Shown piece after piece: positions 1 to 64,000 of a DNA stretch of 64,000 nucleotides. The position numbers and the translations under genes were made by a program. A model generated the notes under the pieces. The model did no database searches. It was not told where the DNA came from and saw only the letters and a list, made by a program, of their open reading frames with translations. Each line of letters starts with the position of its first letter. Positions within the stretch are counted from its first letter, which is position 1. The DNA comes from a virus, in the IMG/VR virus record IMGVR_UViG_3300049005_000030, positions 37,154-101,153 of that record, one strand, 5' to 3'.

Positions 1-660
1 GACGCCAAGCGCGCGGGGCTGTTCGCACCGTGGGTGCGTGTGCCTGACGCGTTCGGTGGCACCAAGACCATCAGCCCTGAAGGCTATGTGGCGGCCAGCC
101 GAGCCCGGGCGCACAACACCGTCGGCCCGTGGCAGTCGGCTGCCGGCGAGATCTCCAAGGCTCGCTACGTGCTCATGCCGGACATCATGTACTCCGCCGC
201 CGACGGCAACGAGCTGGACGGCGCGAAGGTCAACGCCATCCGCACCGTGGCCGGCGCGGTCCGCGTCTACGGCTGGCGGTCGCTGTCGTCCGACACCGAC
301 AACTGGGCGTTCCTCAAGGACGCCGACGTCGTGAACCGGGTGGTCACCGAGTCCTACGCCCGGCTGGAGCCGTACCTGTTCGCGGTGATCGACGCCAAGG
401 GACAGCTCCGGTCGCAGATCGCCGGCACGCTGGAAGGCATCGTGCTGCCGATGGCAACGGCCAGCGGCCTTTTCCCGAGGATCGCCGCCGACGGGACTCA
501 GCTCGACCCTGGGTACAAGGTCAACGTCGGCGACGACATCAATCCGGTGGCCTCGCTGGCACAGAACCAGATCCTTGCCACGCTCGGCATTCGGATCTCG
601 CCCACCGCCGCGATGGTCTTCCTGACGGTCACCAAGGCCGCCGTGACGGCCGCGCTGTGA
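1..660 (+). CDS. Tail sheath protein, C-terminal part (cut by window edge)
   Basis: The frame is open from the first base, so the gene begins upstream and only the last 219 residues are seen. The visible part has the character of the C-terminal domain of contractile-tail sheath proteins: a VYGWRSLSSD strand, a helix around RVVTESYARLEPYLF, then TLEGIVLPMATASGLFP. Sheath subunits surround the tail tube and contract to drive it through the cell envelope. The tube gene follows 13 bp downstream, the standard myovirus order, which supports the call more than any single motif. Confidence 0.82.
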   Translation, partial: DAKRAGLFAPWVRVPDAFGGTKTISPEGYVAASRARAHNTVGPWQSAAGEISKARYVLMPDIMYSAADGNELDGAKVNAIRTVAGAVRVYGWRSLSSDTDNWAFLKDADVVNRVVTESYARLEPYLFAVIDAKGQLRSQIAGTLEGIVLPMATASGLFPRIAADGTQLDPGYKVNVGDDINPVASLAQNQILATLGIRISPTAAMVFLTVTKAAVTAAL

Positions 661-51535: not shown

Positions 51536-51565
51536 TTGACTAGCCGGTGAGACTCCGGCTAGTCT
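51536..51565 (+). promoter_or_regulatory. Dyad-type promoter, leaderless
   Basis: TTGACT (51536-51541), 18 bp spacer AGCCGGTGAGACTCCGGC, TAGTCT (51560-51565); ATG at 51572 is 7 bases on. One of the best copies of the element. Confidence 0.87.
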
Positions 51566-56447: not shown

Positions 56448-56477
56448 AGAATAGCCGGTCACTCGACGGTTCGTCAA
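56448..56477 (-). promoter_or_regulatory. Dyad-type promoter
   Basis: Minus strand TTGACG (56472-56477), 18 bp spacer AACCGTCGAGTGACCGGC, TATTCT (56448-56453). The TGA stop of the gene at 56474 is part of the -35. Confidence 0.8.
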
Positions 56478-58040: not shown

Positions 58041-58781
58041 CTAGGCCCGGTGCGGCACCGGCGCGACCACGTCGCCCTGCTGGCCGAGCAGGTAGGCCAT
58101 GTCGCGCACGTGCATCCGGAACCGGCCCCGGTCGCCCCACCCCTTCCCCCACGAGTTGTCCAGGGTGATGACACCGTTGTCCAAAGTCGAGCCGGGCTCG
58201 AATTCGCGGCACAGGTACTCGTGGCCGCCCTGCACGCTGCCGGCGACGGGGACGAAACCACGCGAGTCAGGCTGGTCCATACCGGACAGCCACACCGTGC
58301 CGATGATCACCGGCGCGGTCTGCAACGCGGTCAACAGCCCGGTCACGCTGAACGCGTGCTGGTAGCCGTCGATCAGGCCGCGCGCCCGCAGCACCTTGGC
58401 GATAGCCAGGCCGGACGACCCGGTGTCCATGGGCGGGTAGCTGCCGGGCACGTCGTCGCGGTGGGTCGCGTCGCTGTACAGCTTGACCGCGTACGCCTCG
58501 TCCAGGCCAAGCCCGCGCACCGGCCGGGACAGCGCGAACGGCTCGCAGGCCAGCATCCCGGTACCCGCGTTGCCGGTGCAGCTGCCGAGCTGGCCCTGGT
58601 CCAAGATGTTGCTGTGACGCCGGTGGAACACGCCTTCGTAGGCGTGTTCGGGACCCCGGTCGGCGGTGGCATAGGCCCGCGAGCGCGGGTCGTGCTCGAT
58701 GAACCGGCCCAGCAGCCGCTCGGCGCGCGGCTGACCGTGGATGAACGCGATCAGCGGGGCGTGATCGTAGACAGTCGTCAT
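58041..58781 (-). CDS. Papain-like cysteine protease (C1-like)
   Basis: A 246-residue protein with the C1 catalytic set in order: the oxyanion Gln and Cys68 in DQGQLGSCTGNAG, His187 in QGGHEYLC, and Asn209 in TLDNSWGKGWGDRGRFRM, which also has the WG..WG..G signature after the Asn. No signal peptide is seen, so it would act in the cell or in the virion, for example on a structural protein or a host target. It stands alone between terminators. Confidence 0.85.
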   Translation of the reverse strand: MTTVYDHAPLIAFIHGQPRAERLLGRFIEHDPRSRAYATADRGPEHAYEGVFHRRHSNILDQGQLGSCTGNAGTGMLACEPFALSRPVRGLGLDEAYAVKLYSDATHRDDVPGSYPPMDTGSSGLAIAKVLRARGLIDGYQHAFSVTGLLTALQTAPVIIGTVWLSGMDQPDSRGFVPVAGSVQGGHEYLCREFEPGSTLDNGVITLDNSWGKGWGDRGRFRMHVRDMAYLLGQQGDVVAPVPHRA

Positions 58782-58828
58782 GCGGGGTAGCCTGCGGGGC
58801 ACGTGGCCGCATGGGGATGCCGACACGC

Positions 58829-58860
58829 CGATGCCCCGCCTGTGGCCTGGCGGGGCATCG
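58829..58860 (-). terminator. Hairpin terminator
   Basis: CGATGCCCCGCC (58829-58840) pairs with GGCGGGGCATCG (58849-58860) just after the stop at 58881 on the minus strand. Confidence 0.75.
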
Positions 58861-58880
58861 GGCATTTCGGGACCAGTCGG

Positions 58881-59315
58881 TCAGACGATCTTGACCCGCT
58901 GGACTGGGTAGTTCAGGCCGAACACGCCGGGGGCAGTCCTGAAGCCCCGGCCGGCGATCCGGAAGGCGTCGCCGCCGACGTTGATGCGGGCCAGCGCGTG
59001 CGAGATATGCACGGTGTAGTTGATCGGGGCGCTGGTGGCCACGGTCTCCCGGGTGCCCAGGTCGTAGACCTCGACCGCATAGCGGTCGCCGTCGGGGTTC
59101 TCGGGTGCGTCGACCAGGCGGGCGCCGTACAGCGTCGGCAGGGCGCGCGAGTCCTCGTCCAGCTCGGCCAGCAGCCCGACCACCACGTGCAGGTCACGGT
59201 AAACCTTGTTCAGGGTGACGCCGGGGCTGACGTCGGCCTGCTTGCTGCGCTGGTCCATGTAGTCCGCGATCGTGCGCACGGCCTCGGTGATGCTGCTGGC
59301 GGTCGGGGTGGCCAT
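58881..59315 (-). CDS. Hypothetical protein
   Basis: A 144-residue protein from ATG 59315 after GAGGAG. A helical N-terminus (ITEAVRTIADYMDQRSKQAD; VVVGLLAELDEDSRALPTLY) is followed by strands (YAVEVYDLGTRETVATSAPI). It is a single-gene operon. No family recognised. Confidence 0.63.
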   Translation of the reverse strand: MATPTASSITEAVRTIADYMDQRSKQADVSPGVTLNKVYRDLHVVVGLLAELDEDSRALPTLYGARLVDAPENPDGDRYAVEVYDLGTRETVATSAPINYTVHISHALARINVGGDAFRIAGRGFRTAPGVFGLNYPVQRVKIV

Positions 59316-59351
59316 GGTCTTCTCCTCAGGGCGCGTGAGCGGAACAGGGAT

Positions 59352-59381
59352 AGACTAGCCGCTCACGCGTCGACTCGTCAA
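59352..59381 (-). promoter_or_regulatory. Dyad-type promoter
   Basis: Minus strand TTGACG (59376-59381), 18 bp spacer AGTCGACGCGTGAGCGGC, TAGTCT (59352-59357). The TGA stop of the mannanase gene lies in the -35. Confidence 0.78.
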
Positions 59382-60514
59382 CCCCCGCAGCCTGGCGTGG
59401 CCACCGGCGGGATATCGGCCAGCTGCACCGACCACGGGTCCGCGAACAGCTGGGCCGAGTTCTGGTTCTCCACCGGGCTCAGCATCGCGCCGTTCGTCTC
59501 GTGCCAGCCCTGCCACCCCACCACCTTCGGGAAGGCCGAGCGGATCCGATTGATGATCGTCGTGGAGTCCCAGGTGCCGCCGTTGGGCGTGGTGTCGTCC
59601 GGCCCGACCTCGCCGAACAGGATGGGCTTGCCCGTGGCCACCAGGTCCGCATAGGTGTTGGAGTACTTGTTGGGCATCGTCAGCGTGTTCGAGTACAGGT
59701 CCGCGCCCACCAGGTCCACCCAGGACGGCCGGCCGAACGAGCACGCCGAGTCCCAGTCCAGCGCGTTGCAGCTGTGCATCCACAGGATCTTCACGGTGCT
59801 CACCTGCGCGGTCACGTAGTCGCGCAAGTCCGTGGTCAGCTGCACCAGCTGGGCGGACCGGGTGGCGTTCGACACGGTCCGGTCCATACCCCACCAGAAG
59901 TAGCTGCCGTTGCTCTCGTGGAACGGCCGGAACGCGATCGTGGCCCCAACCGGCAGCCTGTTCAGGAACGCCACCAGCCTGTCCACCTCCGCCCACCAGG
60001 CGGTGCGCGCCGAGCTGGCCGGGGCCGAGGCGTACAGCGCGGGCAGGCTCGGCTTGGCCGCGTCCGCGTTGGACACCCAGGCCGAGGAGATGGTGCGCGA
60101 GCCGGCGCGCGCCGTCGGGTTCGCCGGGTGGATGTCCATCAGCACCAGGCCGCCCGCGTTGAGCTGCTGCGCCATGCGGTCGGCGAGACCGGCCTGGAAC
60201 GCGTAGCTGTCGTCCGCGCCGGTCAGCGCGACGGTGCCGAGGATGGCCTGGCCGCGCGCATAGTCGGTGGTGCCGTCGGCGGCCGACTCCCACTCGGGGA
60301 GATGCTGACCGGTCAGCACGCGCTTGTCGGACCGGGAGGTCAGGCTGTTCAGGTAGGCCAGCCACTGCGCCGGGGAGCGGTAGGCGGCCGTGGCCGCCGT
60401 GGCGGCCGGCGCGGTGGAGCGCGGCACTGCCGCCAACACCGCCGGAGACAGCGCGAGCAGGGTGGCCAGGGCGGCCACCACACTGCGAGTGCGAAGAATT
60501 CTCATACCGTCCAT
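59378..60514 (-). CDS. Secreted GH26 beta-mannanase-like glycoside hydrolase
   Basis: A 378-residue protein from ATG 60514 (or 60505). A clear signal peptide comes first (MRILRTRSVVAALATLLALSP ... AAVPRS). The barrel shows GH26 features: QWLAYLNSLTSRSDKRVLTG and Q, FRPFHESNGSYFWWG with the acid/base Glu, and KPILFGEVGPDD with the nucleophile Glu. GH26 enzymes mainly hydrolyse beta-1,4-mannan. There is no phage-like attachment domain. A terminator directly upstream and a promoter at the stop isolate it, the layout of a moron gene. Confidence 0.88.
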   Translation of the reverse strand: MDGMRILRTRSVVAALATLLALSPAVLAAVPRSTAPAATAATAAYRSPAQWLAYLNSLTSRSDKRVLTGQHLPEWESAADGTTDYARGQAILGTVALTGADDSYAFQAGLADRMAQQLNAGGLVLMDIHPANPTARAGSRTISSAWVSNADAAKPSLPALYASAPASSARTAWWAEVDRLVAFLNRLPVGATIAFRPFHESNGSYFWWGMDRTVSNATRSAQLVQLTTDLRDYVTAQVSTVKILWMHSCNALDWDSACSFGRPSWVDLVGADLYSNTLTMPNKYSNTYADLVATGKPILFGEVGPDDTTPNGGTWDSTTIINRIRSAFPKVVGWQGWHETNGAMLSPVENQNSAQLFADPWSVQLADIPPVATPGCGG

Positions 60515-60526
60515 GGTGGACAGCGC

Positions 60527-60556
60527 ACGGCCCCCGGCTCGGGAACCGGGGGCCGT
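60527..60556 (-). terminator. Hairpin terminator upstream of the mannanase gene
   Basis: ACGGCCCCCGG (60527-60537) pairs with CCGGGGGCCGT (60546-60556), after the stop at 60571 on the minus strand and only 12 bp before the mannanase start. Confidence 0.75.
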
Positions 60557-60570
60557 GTCGCGGACGAGAA

Positions 60571-60867
60571 CTACTCCTCGTCGGGCTCGAACTGGCCGAA
60601 CAACTCGTCGGCCTGCGCGCTGTCCAGCTCGATCTCGTGTCGCGTGCCATCGGCCACCAGGTTGACGGTCCACCCGTCGTGGTGGCTGCCGTCGGGCCGG
60701 GTGCGACCCAGGCTGATGCCGTCGACGACGCCGGTGTGCTCCGCGCCGTCGCGGCCGGTGATGGTCACCTCGTGGCCCAGCATCGGCGCGCCCATGCGGC
60801 CGAGGCCGGCGGCCAGCGACTGCACGGCCTGGCTGATCACGTCATCCATCTCCGGGTTGGCGTTCAC
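60571..60867 (-). CDS. Hypothetical protein
   Basis: A 98-residue protein from GTG 60867 overlapping the previous stop. After a short helix (MDDVISQAVQSLAAGLGRMG) comes a small beta domain (EVTITGRDGAEHTGVVDGIS) and an acidic tail (FEPDEE). Function unknown. Confidence 0.6.
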   Translation of the reverse strand: MNANPEMDDVISQAVQSLAAGLGRMGAPMLGHEVTITGRDGAEHTGVVDGISLGRTRPDGSHHDGWTVNLVADGTRHEIELDSAQADELFGQFEPDEE

Positions 60868-61205
60868 GCCATCCCCCGCGACAGCTCGTAGAGGACTTCC
60901 CAGTCGATGTCACAGGTGCAGCCCACGGTGTAGCCGGTGCACCCGTACTGGCCGCCGTGGCAGCCGGGGCAGGTGCACGGCTCATCCGGGCCGTGTGGGC
61001 AGGCGTCGGTCATTCTTCGGTGGTGCTCGACCACCTCGTCCGACATCGGCGGGAAGCAGGTGCATCCGGCGTGTTCGGCGCTGAACGCGACCGCGCCGGT
61101 CTGGTCGGTCAGCTTGTGCGCGCCGCAATTGCACACCACGAACCGGTCGGTGAAGCCGTGGCCGGGCTGGAAGATCACCCGGTAGGGCCGGGTGGGCGCG
61201 GTCAC
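60864..61205 (-). CDS. Cys/His-rich protein, likely multi-zinc
   Basis: A 113-residue protein with eleven Cys in groups: CNCGAH, GCTCFPP, ACPHG, PCTCPGCHGG, YGCTGY and GCTCDID. It probably folds around two or more zinc ions. It overlaps both neighbours. Function unknown; the density of ligands is striking for its size. Confidence 0.62.
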   Translation of the reverse strand: MTAPTRPYRVIFQPGHGFTDRFVVCNCGAHKLTDQTGAVAFSAEHAGCTCFPPMSDEVVEHHRRMTDACPHGPDEPCTCPGCHGGQYGCTGYTVGCTCDIDWEVLYELSRGMA

Positions 61206-61528
61206 TCGCGGCCGCCGAACAAGATGGAGATGCCGCCCTTGTAGAGGTCGTCGACGGTGAAGCCGTCGGGGAACCGGATCTCGCCGGTGTACTTGGTGTG
61301 CTGGCTCAGGTAGCGGTCTTCGTCGTCGTTGCCGAACTCGACCAGCACGTCCACCTGGTCTTCGGTCAGCTCGCGGTCGGTGTCGAGGGTGTACTGATCG
61401 TCGGTGTCTTCGATGTACGCGGCGAGGTCGTCCAGGGCGGCCCCGTTGCCGTTGAGCAGGATCCAGGAGTGGGCGGTCTCGCCCTCGTTCTCGTTGACCT
61501 CGGTGAAGCGGACGAACTTCCTGGTCAT
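61202..61528 (-). CDS. Small acidic protein
   Basis: A 108-residue acidic protein from ATG 61528 after AAAGG. Beta-alpha pattern (KFVRFTEVNENEGETAHSWI; DDLAAYIEDTDDQYTLDTDR). It is the first gene after the promoter at 61566. Function unknown. Confidence 0.62.
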   Translation of the reverse strand: MTRKFVRFTEVNENEGETAHSWILLNGNGAALDDLAAYIEDTDDQYTLDTDRELTEDQVDVLVEFGNDDEDRYLSQHTKYTGEIRFPDGFTVDDLYKGGISILFGGRE

Positions 61529-61565: not shown

Positions 61566-61595
61566 AGTATAGCCGGTGACAGGGCGGCTAGTCTA
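61566..61595 (-). promoter_or_regulatory. Dyad-type promoter
   Basis: Minus strand TAGACT (61590-61595), 18 bp spacer AGCCGCCCTGTCACCGGC, TATACT (61566-61571), a strong -10. Confidence 0.78.
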
Positions 61596-61714: not shown

Positions 61715-62083
61715 TCAGTCCAAGGGCAGCTCGAACGTCGCCGACACCTCGCCCGTGCGGTGCTCCACCCAGTCACGGAACCGCACCACCGGCTCGAACT
61801 CCGACCGCGCCAACCTCGCCACCCCGTCGGTGTCCAGGGCATTGATCGCGTGGTGTGTCTGGGTACCGGGGTCGTAGCGACCCACCAGATAGGCCACCAG
61901 CGGCACATGCGGCTCGACCTGCGTCACCGGCTCCCCGATGTCGTACAGCGCCCACACGGCGTAGTCGCCGTCCGGGTCGTCCCATGCGCTGTAGGCCGCG
62001 CCCACCACCTGGCCGTGCTTGGACGGCGCGGCCTGCACCAGCATTGCCAGCGTGGCCACCACCGCCTTGGTGATCTCGATCAT
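61715..62083 (-). CDS. Hypothetical protein
   Basis: A 122-residue protein from ATG 62083 after GGGAGG. A helix (IEITKAVVATLAMLVQAAPS) is followed by strands (YAVWALYDIGEPVTQVEPHV). It is the last gene of the operon of paralogues at 62080-63834. Function unknown. Confidence 0.62.
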   Translation of the reverse strand: MIEITKAVVATLAMLVQAAPSKHGQVVGAAYSAWDDPDGDYAVWALYDIGEPVTQVEPHVPLVAYLVGRYDPGTQTHHAINALDTDGVARLARSEFEPVVRFRDWVEHRTGEVSATFELPLD

Positions 62084-62604
62084 GAATTGCCCTCCCGATT
62101 CGTGAACGCCTTGCCCATCTCCGCGCGCCACACCTGGTCAGCCACACCGGCCACGATCAGCGCCGCAGACTTCACCCGATACGCCATGCCCTCCGGCATC
62201 TCCGCGAACACCGGCCGCACATAGCCGTAGGGGTCCTGCTCGGCCGGCACATCCGCGACGGCATAGGCCATATCCATCGCGTACATGGCCGGAGTCGTCG
62301 CCCGAGGCATGTTGTTGACGACGAACCGGTTCACCCACGCGGGCCCGCTGTCGCTGAACGTCACCGCGCCGGCCGCCGAGCACACCCTGCCATCGCGGTC
62401 CACCTTCATGCCGGACACCGTGGTCGAGCAGTAGAGCATCTCGCCCCGCGAACCGCCCTCGTCCACCCGCTCGTACCGCACCTCGATCCGGTCCGGCCGC
62501 ACCCAGCGGCCCGGCTGCGCCGGAATCGGGATGTTCCCCACATCCGCCACGAACGCGGTCACCACCACCGTCGTGCGCGTGTGCATGCCCATTGGGCCCT
62601 TCAC
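62080..62604 (-). CDS. Member of a tandem paralogous family (copy 4)
   Basis: A 174-residue protein from GTG 62604. It shares with the three upstream genes a strand block (VRPDRIEVRYERVDEGG), a MKVDRDGRV turn and a closing motif SGPAWVNRFVVNNMPRA, the (A/P)xW(V/I)xxFVxxNxP pattern. After that it has its own helical C-terminus (TPAMYAMDMAYAVADVPAEQ). Function unknown. Confidence 0.65.
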   Translation of the reverse strand: MKGPMGMHTRTTVVVTAFVADVGNIPIPAQPGRWVRPDRIEVRYERVDEGGSRGEMLYCSTTVSGMKVDRDGRVCSAAGAVTFSDSGPAWVNRFVVNNMPRATTPAMYAMDMAYAVADVPAEQDPYGYVRPVFAEMPEGMAYRVKSAALIVAGVADQVWRAEMGKAFTNREGNS

Positions 62605-62945
62605 CGCGCCACCTCCGGCGCCGGCCGGCGGTCCGGGTGATTCGCGGTGGCGAACTCCCGCGCCCACTGTGGCGCCTCGTCTAGGGACTGCCGCAGCCCC
62701 TGACCGTAATGCGCAGCATCGAACTGCGAACCCAGCTCGCGTTCCGTTTTCTTCAGCACGCGCGGGCCCCTGATGTTGATGCCGCAGAGGTGCCAGCCGC
62801 TGGGATCGATCGCGTAGAAAGCCGTGATGGAACGCGGTGAGAACTTCCCAGGTCGATTACCCACCGTTCCTAGCATGTCGTCCTCGGGTTCTGCGACGAG
62901 ACTGGCCTGCGCCTCGCTACTGCGCCGCGCCTTGTCGATCTTCAT
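62601..62945 (-). CDS. Member of a tandem paralogous family (copy 3)
   Basis: A 114-residue protein from ATG 62945 after GGGAGG. Family features: FSPRSITAFYAIDPSGWHLC, INIRGPRVLKKTERELG and EAPQWAREFATANHPD. The last matches FVADNNPS in copy 1 and FVKAHKPG in copy 2. Overlaps both neighbours by four bases. Function unknown. Confidence 0.65.
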   Translation of the reverse strand: MKIDKARRSSEAQASLVAEPEDDMLGTVGNRPGKFSPRSITAFYAIDPSGWHLCGINIRGPRVLKKTERELGSQFDAAHYGQGLRQSLDEAPQWAREFATANHPDRRPAPEVAR

Positions 62946-63277
62946 TTTGTCCCTCCCGGCTTGTGAGCCTTCACGAAGTTCTGGACCCACATCGGAGCGC
63001 GGGTCAGGTAGTACTCGGGATGCGACTGCGGCCGCTCGCTCCACCGCGCCTCGACTTCCGGGCCCGGCTGGCCGCCCCGACCCCAGCTCTGCGAGTTGGG
63101 GCCGTGCACGCGGACGTACTCCAGCACGTAACCGTCCGCCTCTTGCCGGTAGACCGCGTGGACGCGTACGGGCTGGAACCACGCCCGGCTACTCACGTTG
63201 CCGCGCAGCGCCGCGCGGTCCTTGTGGTCGACGACCACGTCCGCGCGGGCCTCGACACGGCCACGGGTGAGCCTCAC
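62942..63277 (-). CDS. Member of a tandem paralogous family (copy 2)
   Basis: A 111-residue protein from GTG 63277. Family features: VRVHAVYRQEADGYVLEYVR and RAPMWVQNFVKAHKPGG; the middle is richer in Gly and Arg. It overlaps both neighbours. Function unknown. Confidence 0.65.
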   Translation of the reverse strand: MRLTRGRVEARADVVVDHKDRAALRGNVSSRAWFQPVRVHAVYRQEADGYVLEYVRVHGPNSQSWGRGGQPGPEVEARWSERPQSHPEYYLTRAPMWVQNFVKAHKPGGTK

Positions 63278-63834
63278 AGCTCGGTCCCCAGTCCAGCCGC
63301 AGCGTCGTGCGCCACCGCCGCCTGCTTGTATCGCTCGGAGCCAGAGCGCGGCGACAGCGCGCGGGCCAGGTCGGGGAACAGCGCCAGCTCTTCCGGGTAG
63401 ACGTTGGCCTTTCCGGCCGGCAGGTCGCGGAGCAGGCGGCACAGCACGTCTCGTTCGCGCGGGGTCAGCTCGCGCGCCATCGGCTCCGACTCGCCGTTGT
63501 AGGCCAGCTGGTCCTCGGCCCACACGCGGGTTGTGCCGACCAGGCTGGGGTTGTTGTCGGCGACAAAGTCCTGGATCCACTGCGGGTGATGCTCCAGGTA
63601 TTGGGTGATCTGGCAGCTGGCCTGCTTCAGGCCGCGCTTGCCGTTGCGCAGGATGCGCTGGCCGCTGATGTCCGCGAACTCGAAGGCCCAGCGACCGTTG
63701 CGGATGCGGTAGACGACAACAATGCGCTCAGGGGTCAGGCGGGTCAGCTGACCACCATGGGTGATGTCCAGCGGCTCGACACCGCTTACCTCGCCGAACG
63801 CTTCTGTGACGTAGTCGGTGCGCCTGACGGTCAT
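63274..63834 (-). CDS. Member of a tandem paralogous family (copy 1)
   Basis: A 186-residue protein from ATG 63834. The N-terminal 100 residues carry the family domain (LTPERIVVVYRIRNGRWAFE, ISGQRILRNGKRGLKQ, HHPQWIQDFVADNNPS). A C-terminal extension (LTPRERDVLCRLLRDLPAGK) resembles a helical HTH-like segment and is not found in the other copies. Function unknown. Confidence 0.65.
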   Translation of the reverse strand: MTVRRTDYVTEAFGEVSGVEPLDITHGGQLTRLTPERIVVVYRIRNGRWAFEFADISGQRILRNGKRGLKQASCQITQYLEHHPQWIQDFVADNNPSLVGTTRVWAEDQLAYNGESEPMARELTPRERDVLCRLLRDLPAGKANVYPEELALFPDLARALSPRSGSERYKQAAVAHDAAAGLGTEL

Positions 63835-63891: not shown

Positions 63892-64000
63892 TCAGGCCAG
63901 CACGTAGGCCAGGGCGGAGCTGAGGGCCGCCTCGACCGTGCGCGTGCTGTCGACGTCGACGAACTCGGCGTCGTCGCCGGCCCCGACGACCGTGGCCACG
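63892..64000 (-). CDS. C-terminal end of a gene cut by the window edge
   Basis: On the minus strand the frame is open from the window edge to TGA at 63892-63894, giving about 35 residues (acidic, then a helix EAALSSALAYVLA). The start is outside. Product unknown. Confidence 0.5.
   Translation of the reverse strand, partial: VATVVGAGDDAEFVDVDSTRTVEAALSSALAYVLA

Follow-up and report, generated by a model that had tools for sequence, protein, structure and literature searches.

Viruses of mangrove soil, with hosts predicted to be actinobacteria, have been described as carrying GH26 mannanase genes (PMC6460857), and GH26 genes are also known from viruses of tundra soil (PMC10127799). A viral endomannanase of family GH5 is active in vitro (PMC6786970). 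Claims for viral plant-polymer hydrolases are often doubted, since such genes sit at the edges of contigs or prophages. A first-pass annotation of the DNA described here called GH26 uncommon in phages; the family is indeed rare there, but only in a relative sense given the mangrove and tundra reports. Six IMG/VR contigs carry GH26, and only seven phage records, all from uncultured phages, match other GH26 queries. On the viral-classed contigs of L088 and L090-L093 both catalytic glutamates of the GH26 domain are aligned. L089, with three GH26 genes on one contig, was set aside as possible host DNA, and so was L088/L052, L088 being almost identical to a bacterial MAG contig.

The window, the whole 64,000-nucleotide stretch analysed here, is the final 64 kb of a 101,153-bp virus record, the last base of which is window position 64000. 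The two ends of the record share an exact direct terminal repeat of 127 bp, which gives a closed genome of 101,026 bp; an overlap of this length would fit k-mer closure by the assembler. Because the record closes on itself, the GH26 gene lies within a whole phage genome and not at the edge of a miscalled prophage. The record carries genes for portal, MuF-like, capsid, tape measure, baseplate wedge and terminase proteins. It is thus a true phage genome, with a closed contig, structural and packaging genes, and native promoters on both sides of the GH26 gene. An actinobacterial host is indicated by predicted WhiB and DUF2637 genes and by the best phage homologues, which belong to phages of Gordonia, Streptomyces and Brevibacterium. 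Neither PF00589 (tyrosine integrase) nor PF07508 (large serine recombinase) has a match anywhere in the closed genome, and Pfam scans of most genes found no integrase or partition gene. The phage does not resemble a temperate one with a lysogenic conversion gene, and the suggestion that the enzyme is expressed in a lysogen is accordingly not supported. Three other regions of the genome deserve mention. An FtsK/SpoIIIE-like gene and its neighbours (L002:10792-14495), together with the DUF2637 gene in the same genome half, recall the transfer and spread modules of actinomycete plasmids. About 1.1 kb of non-coding DNA at 46077-47202, rich in CTAG/GCTAGT repeats, is a possible replication or regulatory region. 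Genes 133-136 (minus strand, 62080-63834) are diverged tandem paralogues of one another.

The gene and the parts of its product discussed below are as follows.
59378-60514, minus strand: GH26 glycoside hydrolase gene, 378 aa, assigned by PF02156, PDB mannanases and fold
60428-60514, minus strand: signal-peptide-like N-terminus, read from the translation
59915-59917, minus strand: codon of E200, putative general acid/base, in the motif RPFHESNG, after beta-4 (residues 191-196)
59609-59611, minus strand: codon of E302, putative nucleophile, in the motif FGEVGP, on beta-7 (residues 298-304)

The open frame starts with the ATG at position 60514, and another ATG lies in frame at position 60505 (MRILRTRSVVAALATLLALSPAVLAA). 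PF02156 is the sole Pfam domain of the protein (E 7.4e-22; 78.5 bits against a cut-off of 20.2), and profile positions 82-307 of 311 are covered. In a phmmer search of the PDB the top matches are the beta-mannanases KMAN, BCMan and BsMan26 (E about 1e-22 to 1e-20). Two alignments, one of the window enzyme with 61 GH26 domains and one of 58 rows, give the same seven invariant residues: R196, H199, E200, N202, D267, E302 and W337. Neither catalytic glutamate is lost on alignment: E200 and E302 are invariant in 62/62 and 58/58 rows. H199, which precedes the acid/base, stands in every row together with both glutamates, the catalytic signature of GH26. An AlphaFold2 model built on the 58-row set (pTM 0.81) has a (beta/alpha)8 barrel of the 4/7 type, with the acid/base after beta-4 and the nucleophile on beta-7. 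VIA-align places it on the B. subtilis mannanase 3cbw with a Z score of 31.9 (300 residues, rmsd 2.7) and on 2qha with 31.8. The ranking runs from KMAN, BsMan26 and BCMan (Z 31-32) through other GH26 mannanases (24-27) to lichenases and xylanases (19-20). By sequence and predicted fold the window protein is therefore a GH26 enzyme with a complete catalytic set, closest in kind to mannanases, and it probably digests mannan. Pfam, PDB sequences, predicted fold and alignment all agree with the first-pass annotation that this is a complete glycoside hydrolase with both catalytic glutamates. Its statement that the protein has no phage structural domain also stands: GH26 is alone in the Pfam search, and the protein has no PHROG match.

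The N-terminus (RILRTRSVVAALATLLALSPAVLAA) has the look of a Sec signal, in line with the signal peptide of the first-pass annotation. The n-, h- and c-regions are visible in the sequence, with a basic n-region, RILRTRS, and a hydrophobic stretch, VVAALATLLAL; cleavage may occur after AVLA (residue 29) or further along the Ala-rich stretch. In the model pLDDT is 45-53 over residues 1-40, and the confident fold begins near residue 45. Export of the enzyme would follow from such a signal.

The enzyme has no near kin in the collections searched. Scanning viral and genome contigs for exact peptides returned no close relative, and tblastn of the window enzyme against 50,697 phage records gave none either. 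Among 262 motif-bearing relatives from about 85,000 species, a scan keyed to one conserved motif and so bound to miss some GH26, the best full-length tblastn matches reach at most 31% identity, and short fragments reach 35%. Three of 396 genomes drawn across Actinomycetota have tblastn matches, the best at 35%. Many of the PF02156 matches from Actinomycetes span no more than profile positions of about 139-262, and these were left out of the GH26 relatives. The branch of the window enzyme is among the longest in the full tree and the longest in the reduced tree, at 2.8 changes per column. None of L088 and L090-L093 lies near it; a join with L093 may be a long-branch artefact and was rejected as probable long-branch attraction. 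When the long rows are removed no supported group contains the window enzyme, so no donor can be named, and a branch of this length makes the sequence too diverged to fix specificity within GH26. A foreign composition was looked for and not found, the gene being like the rest of the phage in GC (z 0.7) and codon score (z 0.8). Acquisition would then be old, or the donor a host of equal composition.

The surroundings of the gene are made up of the following elements.
61566-61595, minus strand: promoter of the upstream unit, TAGACT-N18-TATACT, a phage-family element
60571-61528, minus strand: flanking phage unit of genes 131-130-129, from gene calls
61202-61528, 60864-61205 and 60571-60867, minus strand: genes 131, 130 and 129, gene 131 with a weak phrog_14226 match
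60526-60557, no strand assigned: terminator-like hairpin of unit 131-130-129, with a 12-bp perfect G+C-rich stem and no T run
59352-59381, minus strand: promoter of gene 127, TTGACG-N18-TAGTCT, a family member with a PWM score of 39.7
59332-59369, no strand assigned: hairpin with an 11-bp stem and 16-nt loop, 9 nt after the GH26 stop, overlapping the gene 127 promoter
58881-59315, minus strand: gene 127, flanking phage gene and first in the next unit
58041-58865, minus strand: peptidase gene 126 (phrog_16701, E 1e-57), annotated as cysteine protease in related phages
56448-56477 and 51536-51565: further promoter-family sites, examples from across the window

The phage has its own promoter family, TTGAC[T/G/A], an 18-bp spacer (consensus AGCCGGTGAGTCACCGGC) and TANNNT, with 22 exact copies where shuffled sequence gives 0.03; most of them stand 21-48 nt ahead of gene starts. 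Scanning with a weight matrix yields 50 strand-wise matches at a score of at least 10 against 0.2 by chance, many of them the two strands of one palindrome. This palindromic promoter/operator occurs at about 33 places, with the consensus TTGACTAGCCGGTGAGTCACCGGCTANNNT (-35, 18-bp spacer, -10). The 21-bp palindrome TAGCCGGTGAGTCACCGGCTA within the promoter suggests one dimeric regulator over the whole early-type set. The same kind of promoter has 18 exact copies in a relative phage, G760; the family is lineage-wide. Of the perfect hairpins of at least 9 bp, 27/45 lie in the non-coding part (10%), many right behind stop codons.

The GH26 gene occupies the gap between the terminator of unit 131-130-129 and the promoter of gene 127, with hairpins flanking it on both sides. 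The upstream hairpin begins 14 nt past the stop of gene 129, and its ACGGCCCCCG stem is found again at two other phage gene ends. The downstream promoter is native to the phage and drives gene 127, not GH26; its -35 box overlaps the GH26 stop codon. The hairpin at 59332-59369 is possibly the GH26 terminator or a 5' UTR hairpin of gene 127. The placement between a terminator hairpin and a promoter had been noted before, and both elements are real, but the promoter serves the next gene. Genes 122 and 121 also have the terminator-then-promoter order, there without an inserted gene. For the GH26 gene itself the weight matrix finds no promoter of the phage family (best score -17.8 against at least 12 for real copies), a sigma-70 consensus scan recognises none near its start, and the ribosome-binding match of its start codon is weak to middling. 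With no family element upstream and a place between terminator and promoter, the gene is outside the early-type promoter set, as either a guest gene or a late gene. The structural genes and peptidase gene 126 mostly lack the promoter element as well.

A terminase scan brought up the nearest relative, the 107-kb phage G760, whose terminase is 67% identical; scans with the portal and the peptidase turned up no related phage. The peptidase gene occurs across actinobacteriophages (54 phage records), and its homologue in G760 is 64% identical. By tblastn at E 1e-3, G760 shares 47 of 137 called genes. The same search finds neither GH26 nor genes 127 and 129-136 in the 107-kb record, which is possibly incomplete; since it recovered the 47 shared genes, the absence of GH26 is not a failure of the method. 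Distribution is thus sporadic as judged on this one relative. G760 has cargo of its own with putative export signals, as read from sequence: a sortase gene beside a secreted-looking protein (L109:14706-16027) and a GmrSD_C nuclease-type gene (L110:8233-8853). The terminator/promoter setting, the lack of a family promoter and the absence from G760 make the gene look like a guest, or moron. The moron-like placement proposed at the outset is thus borne out: the gene is missing from the relative, sits in a variable region and does not belong to the phage promoter family.

The reading preferred here, at a probability of roughly two in three (about 0.68), is that of a moron or auxiliary gene in a virulent or non-integrating actinobacterial phage, encoding a secreted mannanase that feeds the infected mycelium. 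A contractile-tailed phage of this kind would have taken up the GH26 gene where the terminator of one early-type unit meets the promoter of the following one. Inside an infected cell the gene would be transcribed from an unrecognised promoter or by read-through of the upstream terminator. The product, exported by its Sec-type signal, may then cut beta-1,4-mannosidic bonds in plant gluco- and galactomannan outside the cell. Residues and fold are those of a two-step retaining mechanism, in which E200 would act as acid/base and E302 as nucleophile. The likeliest benefit would be sugar, available while infection lasts to the infected mycelium and to its neighbours.

A late enzyme of lysis or dispersal, released at lysis or shortly before it to open a beta-mannan or glucomannan matrix round hyphae or in debris so that virions spread, is an unlikely alternative. 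GH26 shares the lack of an early-type promoter with most structural genes and peptidase gene 126, and viral GH26 genes elsewhere lie close to endolysins (GH108 in L091, peptidase M15 in L092). On a Klebsiella plasmid, too, GH26 adjoins a phage holin; there (L007:2938-5267) the gene is directly 5' of a lambda-family holin and a lysis gene, beside a colicin gene. The endolysin-adjacent viral enzymes, however, like that of L090, are without a signal peptide and extended at the C-terminus, unlike the signal-bearing, single-domain window enzyme, which lies away from tail and lysis genes; the likely endolysin of this phage (49237-50076) is 9 kb off. The known actinobacterial mannans are alpha-linked and outside GH26 specificity, which also speaks against this role. 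It is very doubtful that the target is instead a beta-1,4 surface glycan made by the host, such as a cellulose-like glucan of the hyphal tip, with superinfection block or receptor detachment as the outcome. GH26 does have members cleaving beta-1,4/1,3-glucan, the CtLic26 fold matches with a Z of about 20 and the window sequence is far from known mannanases, but mannanases come clearly first in both the fold and the sequence ranking. A GH26 branch confined to phages and with a specificity of its own, acting on a beta-linked hyphal glycan of the host and altering or opening the surface late in infection, is improbable, if slightly less so.

A virion component degrading host glycan at adsorption is highly improbable. 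In some phages GH26 is found within a tail module or close to one (L092), but the window enzyme is a single catalytic domain with a putative secretion signal and no tail domain; the tail genes are at 2-14 kb on the plus strand, and GH26 is about 46 kb off on the other strand, which is not the arrangement of a virion-associated depolymerase. Least probable of all, and close to negligible, is a host gene drawn in through faulty assembly or through a prophage end called in the wrong place. As a family GH26 is cellular, and L089 and possibly L088 look like such cases, but the closed 101-kb contig contradicts it, as do the phage promoters and terminators on both sides, a composition the same as that of the phage and the failure to find a close relative in any cell.

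The guest mannanase gene can be set beside several known systems. With the endo-beta-1,4-mannanases KMAN of Klebsiella (7eet) and BCMan/BsMan26 of B. subtilis (2qha, 2whk, 3cbw) the enzyme has in common the fold, the glutamate pair and H199, R196, N202, D267 and W337; these bacterial mannanases are single secreted catalytic domains, as the window enzyme appears to be. It differs from them in being only about 24-26% identical, on a very long branch and phage-borne. L088, a 1011-aa multidomain protein, is unlike it. Lambda-type morons of tailed phages are, like the window GH26, single genes between units, hairpin-bounded and sporadic; the window gene departs from them in having no recognised promoter of its own and no distinct composition. 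The auxiliary CAZymes of soil viruses are likewise plant-polymer hydrolases as viral cargo, and those of PMC6460857 share both family and host phylum. PMC6460857, PMC10127799 and PMC6786970 are contig-level surveys, whereas the present gene comes from a closed genome with the flanking transcription units resolved. Inside a closed genome and framed by a phage terminator and promoter, the gene offers a clean case for tests of expression and activity, and so diverged an enzyme may widen the sequence space of GH26. Viral GH26 has already been published; what is unusual here is the closed genome together with the very diverged enzyme.
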